The notes beneath the pieces are model-generated. The model worked only from the letters and a program-made list of their open reading frames with translations. It made no database searches and was not told the DNA's origin. The translations under genes were made by a program, and so were the position numbers. A DNA stretch of 64,000 bases from positions 62,001 to 126,000 of the forward strand of contig NZ_JAGQCD010000007.1 of NCBI RefSeq assembly GCF_024345975.1, read 5' to 3'. This stretch comes from Cyanobium sp. Cruz-8D1. Its GTDB lineage: Bacteria; Cyanobacteriota; Cyanobacteriia; PCC-6307; Cyanobiaceae. Positions 34,126-39,229 of this stretch are shown here, piece by piece (the first letter of the stretch is position 1; every line of letters begins with the position of its first letter).

Positions 34126-34134
34126 GTGTGAGGA
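34126..34134 (+). promoter_or_regulatory. GTGTGAGGA leader site of porin A (Yfr1-complementary, overlaps RBS)
   Basis: Nine bases ending 4 nt before the porin ATG. They are the exact complement of UCCUCACAC in the conserved Yfr1 sRNA core and include the GAGGA that would serve as Shine-Dalgarno. The same 9-mer precedes the other two porin copies. Yfr1 repression of porin mRNAs is reported for Prochlorococcus; its action here is inferred. Confidence 0.6.
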
Positions 34135-34138
34135 ACCC

Positions 34139-35911
34139 ATGAAACTCTTCCAGCAACTGCTGGTTGCACCTGCAGCCCTTGGCCTGCTCGCCCCTGTGGC
34201 GGTCCAGGCCGCTGAGCTCAACATCGATGGCGTCAACAAGTACGCCGCCGAGGAGCAAGTCACCAGCATCAACCAGTTTTCCGACGTCAAGCCCACCGAC
34301 TGGGCCTTCCAGGCGCTGTCGAACCTGATCGAGCGCTACGGCTGCGTCGCCGGCTACCCGAACGGCACCTACAAAGGCGGCCAGGCCATGACCCGCTACG
34401 AAGCGGCGGCCCTGCTGAACGCCTGTCTCGACCGGATCACCGAAGTGACCGACGAGCTCAAGCGCCTGATGGCCGAGTTCGAGAAGGAACTCGCCGTGCT
34501 GCGCGGCCGAGTCGATGGCCTGGAGGCCAAGGTGGGTGAGCTCGAGGCCACCCAGTTCTCCACCACCACGAAGCTGACCGGTAAGGCCACCTTCATCATG
34601 GGTGCCAACAGCTACGGCGGTAACGCCCGAATCAGCCCTGCGGCTTCTGCTTTCTTCGGGACTTCGGCCGCCACAATCGCTCCTAACGGTGTGATCACTC
34701 CTGGTGTTCCGATCCTCCCCGTTGGGAGTTCCTGGTCGAATCGGGCCAATCAGGCCCAGGGCGCCACGGCGTTCAACTACGACATCCAACTCAACTTCGA
34801 CACCAGCTTCACCGGCAAGGACCTGCTGCGCACCCGCCTGCGCGCCGGTAACTTCGCTGATGGCCCATGGGCCGGCGGTCCGGTCGTTGGCCTGAACGCC
34901 ACGGAAATTGCCTTCGAAGAGAACTGCGGCACCGGCGCCGACTGCGGTGACGTGGTCGCCATCAACCGCCTCTTCTACCAGTTCCCCCTGGGCAGCAACT
35001 TCACCGCCACCGTCGGTGGCCGCGTGCGTCAGGACGACATGCTCGCCGTGTGGCCTTCTGCCTACCCGGCTGACACCGTCCTCGATATCTTCACCTACGC
35101 CGGTGCTCCCGGTGCCTACAGCCTCAACCTGGGTGCTGGTGGTGGTCTGTGGTGGAAGAGCGGCGGCTTCAGCGTCAGCGCCAACTACGTTTCCGCCAAC
35201 GGTGACTCGGGTAACCCGATCGCTGGTACCGCCAACTGCGGTGGCATCGGCAACGCCTGTTCCGCCCAGACGGGCACGGCCCAAGTCGCTTACACCGGCT
35301 CCAACTGGGGTCTCGCGGCGGCCTACACCTACTCCTCGGGTGGTGCAGGTACCTATGCCGGCAACGCCACGCCTCTGGCCAACACCCTCTTCTTGAACGC
35401 GAACGCCACCAACTCGGTGGGCATCAGCGGCTACTGGCAGCCCAGCAACTCCGGTTGGGTTCCCTCCATCAGCACCGGCTGGGGCATCAACACCAACAAC
35501 TTCAACGGCACCAACTTCGCCGACGGGGGGATCGTCTCCACCACCGGGATCACGAAGGCCACCAGCCAGTCCTGGTACGTGGGTCTGCAGTGGGATGACG
35601 TGTTCATCAAGGGCAACGCCGCCGGTATGGCCGTCGGTCAGCCCACCTTCCTCACGGCTGTCAGCGGTGGCAACGCCGTCTTCGGTGGTCCTGCCACCGC
35701 CACCGCCATTGTTGATGGCAACTATGCCTGGGAGTGGTGGTACAAGTTCCAGGTCACCGACAACATCAGCGTGACTCCGGCCCTCTACTACCTGAGTGCT
35801 CCTCTAGGTCAGGTCTCCAAGAACGTCGGTATTGGCGGCGTTCCTACTGGTGCTGGCGGAAGCGATTTCAACAACTTCGGCGCCTTCGTCAAGACCACCT
35901 TCAAGTTCTGA
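34139..35911 (+). CDS. Iron uptake porin, SLH plus OprB type (copy A)
   Basis: Outer-membrane beta-barrel of 590 residues. A signal peptide (1-24, MKLFQQLLVAPAALGL then VQA) is followed by an SLH domain (about 46-100, QFSDVKPTDWAFQALSNLIERYG). Next come a coiled coil (about 100-140, EVTDELKRLMAEFEKELAVLRGRVDGLEAKVGELE) and a Gly/Asn/Thr-rich OprB-like barrel ending in the outer-membrane signature TTFKF. The SLH domain would bind peptidoglycan-linked polymer. Cyanobacterial homologues conduct inorganic ions including iron. It is the first of three related loci in tandem. Confidence 0.93.
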   Translation: MKLFQQLLVAPAALGLLAPVAVQAAELNIDGVNKYAAEEQVTSINQFSDVKPTDWAFQALSNLIERYGCVAGYPNGTYKGGQAMTRYEAAALLNACLDRITEVTDELKRLMAEFEKELAVLRGRVDGLEAKVGELEATQFSTTTKLTGKATFIMGANSYGGNARISPAASAFFGTSAATIAPNGVITPGVPILPVGSSWSNRANQAQGATAFNYDIQLNFDTSFTGKDLLRTRLRAGNFADGPWAGGPVVGLNATEIAFEENCGTGADCGDVVAINRLFYQFPLGSNFTATVGGRVRQDDMLAVWPSAYPADTVLDIFTYAGAPGAYSLNLGAGGGLWWKSGGFSVSANYVSANGDSGNPIAGTANCGGIGNACSAQTGTAQVAYTGSNWGLAAAYTYSSGGAGTYAGNATPLANTLFLNANATNSVGISGYWQPSNSGWVPSISTGWGINTNNFNGTNFADGGIVSTTGITKATSQSWYVGLQWDDVFIKGNAAGMAVGQPTFLTAVSGGNAVFGGPATATAIVDGNYAWEWWYKFQVTDNISVTPALYYLSAPLGQVSKNVGIGGVPTGAGGSDFNNFGAFVKTTFKF

Positions 35912-35929
35912 TCCTTCAGGATCAATCCC

Positions 35930-35936
35930 CCTCACA
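35930..35936 (+). promoter_or_regulatory. CCTCACA motif in the 3' region of porin A
   Basis: This motif lies between a small stem-loop right after the stop (GATCC TTCA GGATC) and the terminator. It is complementary to TGTGAGG in the porin leaders. Equivalent motifs lie after copies B and C. Confidence 0.45.
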
Positions 35937-35952
35937 AACTGTCCTCCCACGG

Positions 35953-35980
35953 GCCCGGCTGCTTTCAGCCGGGCTTTTTT
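35953..35980 (+). terminator. Intrinsic terminator of porin A
   Basis: Stem GCCCGGCTG / CAGCCGGGC with a CTTT loop, followed by six Ts. Confidence 0.93.
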
Positions 35981-36105
35981 GTGTCGGCCAACCATCTGAT
36001 TCCGGCCGTTGACGTGAAGGTTGCTTCGAGCTGGCTTGCCGCTTGCAGGCCAAGAAACAAGCCGTAGATTTCGCCTTGTTCCAGAAAGGAACAGCACTCC
36101 TTAGT

Positions 36106-36114
36106 GTGTGAGGA
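36106..36114 (+). promoter_or_regulatory. GTGTGAGGA leader site kept at the shrunken porin copy B
   Basis: Same 9-mer as in front of porins A and C. In copy B it is followed almost immediately by sequence equal to codon ~64 of porin A (ATCGAGCGCTA), so the start codon, signal peptide and first half of the SLH domain are gone while the leader survives. Confidence 0.6.
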
Positions 36115-36117
36115 ATC

Positions 36118-36918
36118 GAGCGCTATGGCTGCGTCGCCGGCTACCCGGACGGCACCGACAAAGGCGGCCAGGCCATGACCCGGTTTGAGGCGGCGGCCCT
36201 GCTGAACGCCTGCCTCGACCGGATCACGGAAGTGACCGACGAGCTGAAGCGGCTGATGGCCGAGTTCGAGAAGGAACTCGCCGTGCTGCGCGGCCGGGTG
36301 GATGGCCTGGAGGCCTGGGTGGGTGAGCTGGAAGCGGCCCAGTTCTCCACCACCACCAAGCTGACCGGTAAGGCCAGCTTCAGCATCGGCCCCATCGGCG
36401 ACGGCGTGGGCGATGTCCCCAACACCTGGGCGAACCAGGCGTGTCAGACCCAGGGCGCCACGGCGTTCAACGACGACATCCAGCTCAACGTCGACACGAG
36501 CTTCACCGGCAAGGACCTGCTGCGCACCCGCCTGCGCGCCGGTCACTCTGCCCAGTCTCCCTTCGGCGGCCCCAGCGTCGGCCTGAACGCCTCGGAAGCC
36601 GGCTTCGAAGTGTTCTGCGGCACCCCCAACTGCGGTGGCATCGGCAACGCCTGTTCCGCCCAGACGGGTACGGCCCAGATCGCCAGCACCGTTTCCAACT
36701 GGGGAATCGCGGCGGCTTACACCGACTCTTCGGGCGGTGCCGGCCCCTACAGCGGCAACGGCACGCCGCTGGCCACGATCTTCCAGACCACCGCCACCGC
36801 TAGCGTGGATGGCAACTACGCCTGGGAGTGGTGGTCCAAGTTTCAGGTCACCGACAACATCAATGGCAACGACTTCAATAACTCCGGCGGCTTCCTCAAG
36901 ACCACTTTCAAGTTCTGA
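36118..36918 (+). pseudogene. Shrunken iron uptake porin (copy B), no signal peptide, several in-frame deletions
   Basis: Homology to copy A starts at ERYGCVAGYP with no start codon; the first in-frame ATG is 36175. The SLH remnant, coiled coil, start of the barrel and the final TTFKF are kept. Large internal barrel parts are missing: between FCGT and NCGGIGNACSAQTG, between TPLA and the TASVDGNYAWEWW segment, and after VTDNI. All joints stay in frame and the frame is open to the TGA at 36918. Without export signal it cannot be a normal porin. A 17-codon ORF from 36125 ends in an ATGA overlap with ATG 36175. Confidence 0.8.
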
Positions 36919-36935
36919 TCCTTCAGGATCCCTTT

Positions 36936-36945
36936 CTCCTCACAC
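36936..36945 (+). ncRNA. Yfr1-like CTCCTCACAC core in the 3' region of copy B (candidate 3'UTR-derived sRNA, about 36917-36986)
   Basis: After the copy B stop come a small stem-loop (GATCC TTCA GGATC), an unpaired pyrimidine-rich stretch containing CTCCTCACAC, and a strong terminator hairpin with T-run. That is the layout of the Yfr1 sRNA. The core pairs perfectly over 9 nt with all three GTGTGAGGA leader sites. The genuine yfr1 gene is usually near guaB/trxA and is not in this window. No transcript evidence is available. Confidence 0.4.
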
Positions 36946-36959
36946 CAACCTCAACGTTT

Positions 36960-36986
36960 ACCGGCTGCTGTGCAGCCGGTTTTTTT
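36960..36986 (+). terminator. Intrinsic terminator after porin copy B
   Basis: Stem ACCGGCTGC / GCAGCCGGT with a TGT loop, followed by a seven-T run (the last pairing T included). Confidence 0.93.
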
Positions 36987-37331
36987 CGTCCCTGTGACCG
37001 GAACCGATTCCGTCCCCGCTCTCTGGTGGTGGCCGTTGGGCATCCTGCCGCGGGGCTTGCCCCTGTTGATGGCAGGACCAGTAAGACCCTTCCTGCGAGG
37101 TCCTCTGGCGCCCCGGGCCAGTCGAGCGGCGTGCGCGGCGGTCCGATCCAGGTCCACTTCCGCTTCTGATTCTTCCTCCCACCGCTTCAGCACCGGTTCG
37201 AGCGGGGCGTTCGGCGGGCCCCCTGCCCCGTCATGTCAGCTGCGATACAAGCCGGTGTGATGCGGCCTTGCTGCGGGGCCTATGGATTCCGATACCTTTG
37301 CGCCTTCCCCTTCGCGGGAATTCCTCTTTTG
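36987..37331. other. Spacer between porin copies B and C
   Basis: No recognised gene. A minus-strand frame (about 36951-37193, GTG start) reads LKRWEEESEAEVDLDRTAAHAARLARG, which looks more protein-like than chance. However, it runs antisense through the copy B terminator and matches no family I know. The promoter of copy C should lie in the AT-richer 37260-37331 part. Confidence 0.4.
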
Positions 37332-37340
37332 GTGTGAGGA
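37332..37340 (+). promoter_or_regulatory. GTGTGAGGA leader site of porin C (Yfr1-complementary, overlaps RBS)
   Basis: Identical 9-mer ending 3 nt before the ATG of porin C. The flanks differ from those of copy A (GGTGTGAGGACCAATG), so the 9-mer itself is what has been conserved. Confidence 0.6.
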
Positions 37341-37343
37341 CCA

Positions 37344-39170
37344 ATGAAACCCTTCCAGCAACTTCTGCTGGCGCCGGTAGCCCTTGGGCTGCTGTCGCCA
37401 CTTGCCGCTTCCGCCGGTGAGATCGCCCCCACCCAGAGGGCAGAGATCTCCACCTACATGGAGCAGCAGGACATCGATCGCTTCAAGGCCTGGGAAGCTC
37501 AGAACCAGGTCACGAGCGTCAACCAGTTTTCCGACGTCAAGCCCACCGACTGGGCTTTCCAGGCCCTTTCCAACCTGGTGGATCGTTACGGCTGCGTCGC
37601 CGGCTATCCCAATGGCACCTTCAAGGGCGGCCAGGCCATGACCCGGTTTGAGGCGGCGGCCCTGCTGAACGCCTGCCTCGACCGCATCACGGAAGTGACC
37701 GACGAGCTCAAGCGGCTGATGGACGAGTTCGAGAAGGAACTCGCCGTGCTGCGCGGCCGGGTGGATGGCCTGGAGGCCAAGGTGGGTGAGCTGGAAGCCA
37801 CCCAGTTCTCCACCACCACCAAGCTCCAGGGTGATGCCGTCTTCGTGATCGGCGCCAACAGCTTCGGCGGCAGCCAGGGCAACCCGAACACCGCGGCCTT
37901 CCTGCCCTTGGGTGCTAACCCCAACAGTGCGTTGCCGGCCACCAACGCCAATGCGAACCGCTTCCCCGCCAACAATCGCCGCGACTGGGGGGGCACGGTG
38001 TTCAACTATGACCTCCGCCTCAACCTCCTCACCAGCTTCACCGGTAAGGACCTGCTCTACACCCGTCTGCGGGCCGGCAACTTCCAGAACAGCCCCTTCG
38101 GAGGCAACCCCTACAACCTGATGGCCCTGGATCGGGCCTTCTCCTCCAACGTGGGCAGTGCTGCCGGCAGCACCGGCAACGACATCGTTTCTATCGATCG
38201 TCTGTACTACCGCTTCCCGATCGGCCGCGACTTCACGGCCCTTCTCGGCGCCAAAGCCCGGAACACCGAGTTCCTGGCCGTGACGCCCTGGTTTTACAAC
38301 AGCGGCATCCTTGATGTCTTCACCCTGCACGGTGCCCCCGGCACCTACAACAAGGCCACCGGTTCCACCTTCGGCCTGATGTGGAAACAGAACGTCAAAA
38401 AAGGTAAGCCCTTCTTTGCTCTTTCGACGGCTTACGTCGCCCCCAGGGGCGACAACGGCAACCCCAACCAGGGTGGTCTGCTGACTGAGCGCAGTGGCGG
38501 CACCTGGACCACCCAGGCCGGCATCGCTGGCAAGCAATGGCGTTTCGCCTTTGCCTGGAGCTATGTCCAGTGTGGAACCAACTTCCGCAGGGGCACCCAG
38601 TTCGCCCAGCCTGGCGTGGACTGCACCAACATCACCACCCCCGCTGGAATCGAGAACAACGGCGGCAGTGCCTCCTACTCCAACAACTTCGCCACGACCC
38701 TGGCCTGGCAGCCCAAAAAGAGCGGCTGGCTCCCCTCCATCAACCTGGGCTGGGGCTACAACGCCTTGACCCAGCCGGAGCTGAACCCACTGACCTCCGC
38801 GGTTCGGGTCGGACGCACCACGGTGAACCTTCCCAACGGCTTCAGCCGGGTCCCCACCTTCAGTGAGTCGACCAACCGCGCCGCCAGCCAGTCCTGGAGC
38901 GTGGGCCTGCAATGGTCCGACGTGTTCATGAAGGGCAATGCCCTCGGCATGGCTGTGGGTCAGCCGGTGTTCGCCACCTCGCTGCGCAACGGCGAAACCC
39001 CCCAGGACGGCAACTACGCCTGGGAGTGGTGGTATCGGTTCCAGGTCACCGACAACATCAGCGTGACCCCGGCTCTGTTCTATCTGAGCCGCCCCAACGG
39101 TCAGTTCACCACCGCTGGCCAGTCGAGCAGCGTGCTCGGCGCCCTGATCCAGACCCAGTTCAAGTTCTGA
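37344..39170 (+). CDS. Iron uptake porin, SLH plus OprB type (copy C)
   Basis: 608-residue paralogue of copy A. The signal peptide MKPFQQLLLAPVALGLLSPLAASA is followed by an acidic insert (MEQQDIDRFKAWEAQ) not present in A. The SLH and coiled-coil region is nearly identical to A, while the OprB barrel is much more diverged; it ends QTQFKF. The near-identical 5' halves and diverged 3' halves suggest gene conversion or selection on the SLH part. It has its own terminator. Confidence 0.93.
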   Translation: MKPFQQLLLAPVALGLLSPLAASAGEIAPTQRAEISTYMEQQDIDRFKAWEAQNQVTSVNQFSDVKPTDWAFQALSNLVDRYGCVAGYPNGTFKGGQAMTRFEAAALLNACLDRITEVTDELKRLMDEFEKELAVLRGRVDGLEAKVGELEATQFSTTTKLQGDAVFVIGANSFGGSQGNPNTAAFLPLGANPNSALPATNANANRFPANNRRDWGGTVFNYDLRLNLLTSFTGKDLLYTRLRAGNFQNSPFGGNPYNLMALDRAFSSNVGSAAGSTGNDIVSIDRLYYRFPIGRDFTALLGAKARNTEFLAVTPWFYNSGILDVFTLHGAPGTYNKATGSTFGLMWKQNVKKGKPFFALSTAYVAPRGDNGNPNQGGLLTERSGGTWTTQAGIAGKQWRFAFAWSYVQCGTNFRRGTQFAQPGVDCTNITTPAGIENNGGSASYSNNFATTLAWQPKKSGWLPSINLGWGYNALTQPELNPLTSAVRVGRTTVNLPNGFSRVPTFSESTNRAASQSWSVGLQWSDVFMKGNALGMAVGQPVFATSLRNGETPQDGNYAWEWWYRFQVTDNISVTPALFYLSRPNGQFTTAGQSSSVLGALIQTQFKF

Positions 39171-39188
39171 TCCTCCGGTTTCACCCTT

Positions 39189-39195
39189 CCTCACA
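39189..39195 (+). promoter_or_regulatory. CCTCACA motif in the 3' region of porin C
   Basis: The sequence TTCCTCACAACC sits between the stop codon and the terminator; TCCTCACA pairs over 8 nt with TGTGAGGA in the porin leaders. The position matches copies A and B. Confidence 0.45.
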
Positions 39196-39202
39196 ACCCC
39201 CT

Positions 39203-39229
39203 GCCCCCCCTCAAGGGGGGCTTTTTTTT
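39203..39229 (+). terminator. Intrinsic terminator of porin C
   Basis: Stem GCCCCCC / GGGGGGC with a short CTCAA-type loop, followed by eight Ts. Confidence 0.93.

Follow-up and report, generated by a model that had tools for sequence, protein, structure and literature searches.

An exposed motif on the 3' tails of picocyanobacterial porin mRNAs suggests that porin messages may help to switch themselves off

The window considered here, a stretch of 64,000 nucleotides of Cyanobium sp. Cruz-8D1 DNA, contains a tandem array of three SLH-OprB-type porin genes: A, a shrunken copy B, and C. Downstream of the shrunken copy lies a short sequence resembling the core of Yfr1, a small RNA reported to act through this core against the mRNAs of porins and of other outer-membrane proteins, which it represses in Prochlorococcus and Nostoc (parts of PMC6778093 and PMC6974561), and the question raised by the locus is what such a sequence is doing behind a porin gene. 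An earlier note on this DNA had treated the element as something peculiar to a locus that has lost its protein. The best reading is a lineage-specific element of the Yfr1/Yfr10 type in the 3'UTR of Yfr1's own targets, and genome comparison shows a genuine, conserved feature that goes with Yfr1-type porin leaders. Pfam recognises OprB and SLH in A and C and only the OprB part in B, and the features of the array are as follows.

34126..34134, + strand: leader of A, GTGTGAGGA, upstream of the ATG at 34139, a Yfr1-type target site (sequence)
34139..35911, + strand: porin A (SLH + OprB), 590 aa (translation; Pfam OprB, SLH)
35909..35924, + strand: stem spanning the stop codon of A (predicted fold)
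35930..35936, + strand: anti-leader motif CCTCACA in the 3'UTR of A (sequence; CTCAC kept in the alignment of relatives)
35951..35980, + strand: terminator of A (sequence, terminator search)
36106..36114, + strand: leader of B, GTGTGAGGA, without a close in-frame start 3' of it (sequence)
36112..36918, + strand: truncated porin copy B, frame open (translation, Pfam)
36917..36930, + strand: stem-loop of B, GATCC-TTCA-GGATC (stem search, fold)
36936..36945, + strand: anti-leader motif CTCCTCACAC in the 3'UTR of B, 10/11 of the Yfr1 core (sequence, fold)
36960..36986, + strand: terminator of B (sequence, fold)
37332..37340, + strand: leader of C, GTGTGAGGA, upstream of the ATG at 37344 (sequence)
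37344..39170, + strand: porin C (SLH + OprB), 608 aa (translation; Pfam)
39189..39195, + strand: anti-leader motif CCTCACA in the 3'UTR of C (sequence; CTCAC kept in the alignment of relatives)
39203..39229, + strand: terminator of C (sequence, fold)

The stop codon of B (TGA, 36916-36918) is followed directly by a 5-bp stem (36917-36930), as the earlier note had observed, and the layout that it described, a stem, an open CTCCTCACAC, and a terminator, is seen in the sequence and fits the predicted fold. The terminator has a stem at 36960-36980 with nine pairs (seven GC) and a T-run to 36986. The fold predicted for 36913-36989 consists of stem, open core, and terminator and is more stable than all of 200 shuffles (z -4.15), much of this stability being due to the terminator. 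A core that is single-stranded between two stems, the 3' one being the terminator, is thus predicted for B, and for A and C the prediction is less distinct: in the fold obtained for 35909-35985, which extends beyond the T-run, the final letters of the A motif are paired, and the fold of copy C is unremarkable (z -1.09). No sigma-70-like promoter site was found in 35600-37400, a weak test in which shuffles also yielded only 0.1. The 10-mer CTCCTCACAC at 36936-36945 is the sole copy in the window, where 0.15 would be expected by chance; on its own it is weak evidence because 15 of 100 shuffles contain at least one copy. The whole genome holds nine copies and five of the reversed word. Elsewhere in this genome (contigs C21 and C22) CTCCTCACAC lies shortly upstream of the starts of related genes at three loci (L015, L016, and L017), the product of L016 resembling a Rad52-type annealing protein.

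The resemblance to Yfr1 does not make the element a yfr1 gene, a candidate that was rejected since RF01116 gives no match here and the genome's own Yfr1 match is located elsewhere. A scan of the window returned only a tRNA and no RF01116 match above the gathering score, and none was found in 35800-37100 at E<=5. The single match to the Yfr1 model in this genome lies at G000:C43:17099-17155 (65.1 bits), upstream of a gene read from its sequence as a thioredoxin gene; the window element lies between porins and does not share the guaB-yfr1-trxA synteny. The earlier note had equated the sequence at B with the Yfr1 core, and 10 of the letters agree (UCUCCUCACAC, 10/11), but the full 11-nt core ACUCCUCACAC is absent since B begins with U; A (CCCCCUCACAA) and C (CUUCCUCACAA) each match 8/11. 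Rfam models gave no match at the gathering score at any of eight loci (L097, five hairpin-form loci, one hairpin variant, and one locus of the non-porin family), and the window does not show the loop placement typical of Yfr10, the stem at copy B having p 0.985. What stands of the Yfr1-type interpretation is a Yfr1-type core, a Yfr1-like layout, and complementarity to the leaders; identity with Yfr1 itself does not.

All three tandem porins have CCTCACA between the stop codon and the terminator and TGTGAGGA in the leader, including A (motif at 35930) and C (39189), where the motif had previously been missed. Since the coding copies carry it as well, the feature is a property of porin 3'UTRs and not of the broken copy. 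CCTCACA occurs 10 times on both strands of the window, the chance level (10.3 expected), three of these being the porin 3'UTRs and three the leaders on the opposite strand. At this rate the probability that 3/3 porin 3'UTRs carry it by chance is about 2e-7, a figure that is overstated because the copies are paralogues. At the loci examined, leader and motif are both missing from the other porins of this genome (on contigs C39, C98, and C47). Counting ATG starts only, TGTGAGG stands shortly before an ATG 27 times in the genome, and the frames of more than 200 codons among these matches are both intact porins and four further ones. The full GTGTGAGGA precedes an ATG only in these two porins and in one 26-codon frame. 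The proposed tie to a locus without protein is not supported: the motif occurs generally in the porin 3'UTRs of the clade, and in the close relative L024 copy B is missing between A and C.

The absence of B from L024 also bears on whether the element of copy B is now idle, B being a decaying duplicate that has inherited an ordinary porin 3'UTR, which has somewhat less than an even chance of being correct. Copy B lacks a signal peptide, a near-leader start, and much of the barrel; its first in-frame ATG is at 36175, and the out-of-frame ATG at 36124 after its leader opens an ORF of only 17 aa. Decay would also agree with a second remnant between B and C, a porin C-terminal relic at 37111-37173 (63 nt, 78% identical to 39112-39174), which points to the probable loss of one or more further porin copies from the array. 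However, the frame of B is open and its motif is the longest Yfr1-core match of the three, and these too are compatible with chance. Copy B as a neutral pseudogene and copy B as a locus that still makes RNA are about as likely.

The conservation of the motif was examined in 204 distinct porin 3' ends (210 before duplicates were removed) from 74 named loci among the matches listed and from 34 genomes of 27 genera. For the loci, 111 of 124 porin-like ORFs were kept (those that end in F.F and have sufficient 3' sequence); the genome set comprised 105 rows, two of them partial and omitted, and the remaining 103 frames gave 93 after odd-ended and short-3' frames and duplicates were dropped. Porin starts and leaders were assigned by rule, and the TGTGAGG leader was present in 112 of the 204, absent from 25, and not judged in 67, copy B among the last. 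Within 150 nt after the stop codon CTCACA is found in 57/112 leader-positive porins versus 6.9 in dinucleotide shuffles. Without any motif being preselected, CTCACA, CCTCACA, and CTCACACA rank first among the 6-, 7-, and 8-letter words of these 112 3'UTRs, ahead of terminator words, and the controls are low (reversed word ACACTC, 7; minus-strand TGTGAG, 2). Chance was rejected for the motif as a class on the strength of its conservation and this word enrichment, although the single 10-mer is not rare. A background of non-porin ORFs (34/406 with CTCACA) is contaminated, because antisense ORFs over porins place the reverse complement of the leader downstream.

In the window and nine close relatives (among the matches listed; porin C 78-98% identical) the motif has no strong enclosing stem. 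CTCAC is invariant in this open form in 12/12 A-type and 14/14 C-type 3'UTRs, flanked by sequence that varies in length and letters, and it is the only invariant run of five columns apart from those of the terminator. The motif shows the position expected of an OppZ/CarZ-like element, between the stop codon and the gene's own intrinsic terminator, and a T-run follows in 67/77 cases at a median of 37 nt. Conservation downstream of the porins of relatives, the absence of which would have spoken against the earlier note, is strong, and the element itself has withstood that comparison. Leaders of the next gene in tandem arrays were rejected as the source of the signal, only 28 of 78 motif-bearing 3'UTRs having a leader within 600 nt downstream (10 of the 78 have less than 600 nt of downstream sequence).

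The motif is associated with the GTGTGAGG leader. Only 1/25 leader-negative porins carries CTCACA as against the 57/112 (Fisher 7.5e-6, too strong a value because the genes are related and relatedness inflates the counts), and this single porin (L160) has a near-leader, GTGTGAGA, that is one letter off. In the unjudged set, 20/67 have the motif. It is absent from 55/112 leader-positive porins, including all 13 from genomes of <=2.0 Mb. As a separate observation on the leader, CCTC stands within 25 nt upstream of GTGTGAGG in 53/112 cases (L032, L033, L036, L038, L040, and others), so that a small stem formed within the leader could mask its start site.

Complementarity between the B core and all three leaders, as previously claimed, is present, the longest perfect runs of the B segment being 9 nt with leader A, 9 nt with leader B, and 12 nt (TTGGTGTGAGGA) with leader C; none of the 44 other non-overlapping reading frames of the window exceeds 7 nt. 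The C segment forms perfect runs of 8-9 nt with the leaders, and one other frame has 8. The A segment reaches only 7 nt, which 8/44 other frames equal or exceed. With their own leaders the runs are 7 (A-A), 9 (B-B), and 8 (C-C), so each segment is complementary to its own start region, A not above background. Ranked by raw duplex energy against the 44 other frames, a porin leader comes first in one combination alone, the B segment with leader C; this segment ranks 18th with leaders A and B, the A segments 24th-39th, and the C segments 13th-34th. Apart from that one combination the energy ranking is not selective, which speaks against the pairing idea. The letters that follow CTCAC are A in 57 cases versus 5.9 expected, G in 15 versus 5.6, C in 15 versus 9.2, and T in 9 versus 7.3, and CTCACGC occurs 13 times versus 2.0. 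A or G, and then C, is as predicted because the leader GUGUGAGG allows A-U or G-U pairs followed by C-G.

These letters also bear on a sponge, in which the motif would bind Yfr2-type RNAs, near-complements of the Yfr1 core, and so free or spare Yfr1. Yfr1 and Yfr10 are reported to bind Yfr2 (in a part of PMC6778093), CTCACC variants exist at L029 and L030, and the genome has a sub-threshold Yfr2-like RNA containing GGTGAGGAG. This RNA, the only Yfr2-like match in the genome, is found at L097 (C13:54726-54795; Cyano-1, 36.1 bits, cut-off 41) and has a terminator-like tail. Its motif would prefer CTCACC, however, which is hardly enriched (the 15 versus 9.2 above), unlike CTCACA and CTCACGC, so that the letters favour pairing with porin leaders over pairing with the Yfr2-like motif of the same genome. 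A sponge would also leave the tie to leader-bearing porins unexplained, and it is quite unlikely.

The same A/G-then-C letters would be favoured if the motif worked only in cis, folding onto the leader of its own mRNA in a 5'-3' closed loop that hides the start or stabilises the message, with no small RNA involved, and the tracking of motif and leader within the same gene (57/112 versus 1/25) would be explained as well. A 3'UTR does not, however, prefer its own leader (-17.46 versus -17.42 kcal/mol for mixed pairs, permutation p 0.42). If the core is shared, no advantage of own pairs is expected in any case, and trans action is as readily allowed as cis. Against cis action are also the layout of hairpin loop and terminator, which is like that of the free sRNAs Yfr1 and Yfr10, and the retention of the motif by copy B, which has no usable start codon; an exclusively cis role is unlikely. 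Improbable is a protein site, that is, a motif bound by a chaperone or nuclease or used for processing, which would set mRNA stability and make the complementarity to the leader secondary. Display in a single strand or a loop would suit a protein too, but nothing would oblige a protein site to match the complement of the leader exactly, or to prefer only A or G opposite the leader U. A bare anti-SD match would not contain the CACAC half.

The motif is found in two forms, open between stop and terminator in the closest relatives and in a hairpin loop in other relatives. An enclosing stem at p<=0.02 relative to flank shuffles is found in 22/85 occurrences versus 1.7 expected, the placement of CTCACA in the loop being given by construction of the search. 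These 22 have 18 distinct inner stems, and CTCACA is both preceded and followed by C in 22/22, compared with 43 and 37 of the 63 others. The stem is maintained by compensatory change: in an alignment of 13 sequences (A4) double changes occur at 8/8 pairs, with 36 double-change cells versus 10.4 in shuffles, and sliding the pairing partner abolishes the covariation signal. A4 comprises the 13 of the 22 class I sequences whose loops align gap-free, and its percentage paired is biased because the class was chosen for pairing, so that 22/85 is the fairer test.

A covariance model of the hairpin (R1) is specific for porin 3' ends. When 200 Cyanobiaceae genomes were searched at E<=0.05, it gave 54 matches, spread over 47 genomes and nine genera, and 29/29 matches with E<1e-3 and 42/54 with E<=0.05 are at porin 3' ends, as placed by fetched sequence or porin coordinates (L252, L273, and L278 were judged by eye; a broken frame lies upstream of L278, and L273 has CCTCGCACAC in the loop). 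Some seed sequences come from the searched genomes, and finding these again is circular, but this does not apply to where the matches lie. The genome of the window has no R1 match under strict filters with 37 candidates scored per genome, a setting that may miss the hairpin in a genome where it is present. The 12 remaining matches comprise eight of a second family, two (L286 and L288) of one element, and two (L283 and L287) in regions of overlapping long open frames. The second hairpin family, GGGYYGCACTCCTCACAYCGCRGCCC, has the longer Yfr1 core ACTCCTCACA[CT] in its loop (at the centres of loci L276, L277, and L289-L294) and is found in five genomes of one genus with up to three copies per genome, some just upstream of a small reading frame (MAGFSVFFCDAQRCSIQPVRAMD...); it is perhaps a Yfr10-type RNA. 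The element at the centre of L286 and L288 is a 37-nt hairpin with CCCTCACACAG in the loop; it appears to occupy one and the same position in two genomes, both from the genus of the window, and has no adjoining porin.

The distribution of leader and motif gives an indication of their relative age. Outside the Cyanobiaceae, 42 porin frames from 38 regions include 24 with the TGTGAGG leader and four with CTCACA in the 3'UTR, and the 3' element is therefore not general there. In the family genome sample CTCACA accompanies the leader in 0/13 porins from genomes of <=2.0 Mb versus 10/27 from larger ones, a small-genome count that leaves out 26 further porins whose leader was not assessed. A widespread leader and a restricted 3' motif suggest an old Yfr1 site to which the 3' mimic was added later. 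Two porins outside the Cyanobiaceae (L378 and L382) combine the leader with CCTCACAC or CCTCACAA in the 3'UTR; these pairs are perhaps independent gains or chance. It is possible, if rather doubtful, that the Yfr1 targets of the clade each grew a 3'UTR mimic of their own, in two forms, which would make every porin mRNA a target of the repressor and at the same time its source, and that a porin gene whose coding part is lost, as happened to copy B, can become a pure Yfr1-like RNA gene, a possible origin for the scattered genes of the Yfr10 type.

The mimic, the sponge, and the 3'UTR sRNA that the earlier note had offered as roles are indistinguishable by sequence. In the preferred reading, porin mRNAs would display the anti-leader Yfr1 core CCUCACAC openly, between stop and terminator or in a hairpin loop, and a terminator-ended 3' fragment of roughly 60-110 nt would be released, perhaps by RNase E. 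Like Yfr1, the fragment would pair with porin mRNAs, both its own and those of paralogues, at their GUGUGAGGA start region and reduce their translation, a negative feedback proportional to porin transcription that would be added to the nearly constitutive Yfr1. We infer the transcript, its processing and release, and repression by the 3' fragment from the features of the element; the chances are about even that the B element is an instance of a conserved porin 3'UTR RNA element, found in a Cyanobium/Synechococcus-type subset of the Cyanobiaceae, whose released fragment lowers porin translation. A transcript of copy B, if made, would be almost purely regulatory because leader B no longer drives porin synthesis.

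The regulatory interest of such an arrangement is that Yfr1 is an abundant, nearly constitutive RNA; if the target mRNAs contained a mimic of the Yfr1 core, repression would be linked to porin transcription and to cross-talk between paralogues. A part of PMC6974561 asks how the effect of Yfr1 on its targets is tuned. A limited look at the literature did not turn up the motif in connection with porin 3'UTRs, and the available portions of PMC7368042 and PMC5069720 contain nothing on porin 3'UTRs. The element would be a case of an sRNA motif moved into the 3'UTRs of its own regulon, with a testable evolutionary series that runs from leader only (other cyanobacteria) through leader with open motif and leader with hairpin to an RNA-only pseudogene.

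Among known RNAs, Yfr1 itself (RF01116, guaB-trxA locus) has the core CUCCUCACAC open between a stem and a terminator and complements porin leaders, its reported targets. The porin element differs in lying within the 3'UTRs of the targets, in having several copies per genome and other flanks, and in lacking a covariance-model match. The hairpin class resembles Yfr10 and other Yfr1-motif RNAs (Yfr18, Yfr104, and Syr5) in carrying the motif in the loop of a hairpin with a variable stem, an arrangement reported for Yfr10 in a part of PMC6778093. In the same portion, however, the Yfr10 genes of HL Prochlorococcus are placed upstream of Yfr2, not in porin 3'UTRs, and the porin loop core is CCTCACAC without the constant ACU. 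The sequence ACTCCTCACAC was found at 35 places in ten genomes, none agreeing with porin coordinates. Yfr21 of Prochlorococcus MED4 is listed between PMED4_12671 and the porin PMM1121, all on one strand, in parts of PMC2518516 and PMC2897979, from which a position downstream of PMM1121 is inferred; unlike the porin element, it is given there as 205 nt long, undetected by Northern, and without reported homologues. ApcZ of Synechocystis is likewise a cyanobacterial sRNA from an mRNA 3' end, but it acts on another gene (ocp), and no link to the Yfr1 core was found in the portion of PMC8136909 consulted. The closest functional parallel is provided by OppZ and CarZ of Vibrio cholerae, in which a 3'UTR sequence pairs with its own transcript and inhibits translation (as described in a part of PMC7398697), the feedback proposed here. 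OppZ and CarZ are experimentally shown and made by RNase E (same source), whereas the porin element is known from sequence alone, and only the porin motif is common to a separate and widely conserved sRNA. The porin element would most likely work through an RNA that is released from the 3'UTR and damps porin translation, much as OppZ and CarZ act on their own operons.
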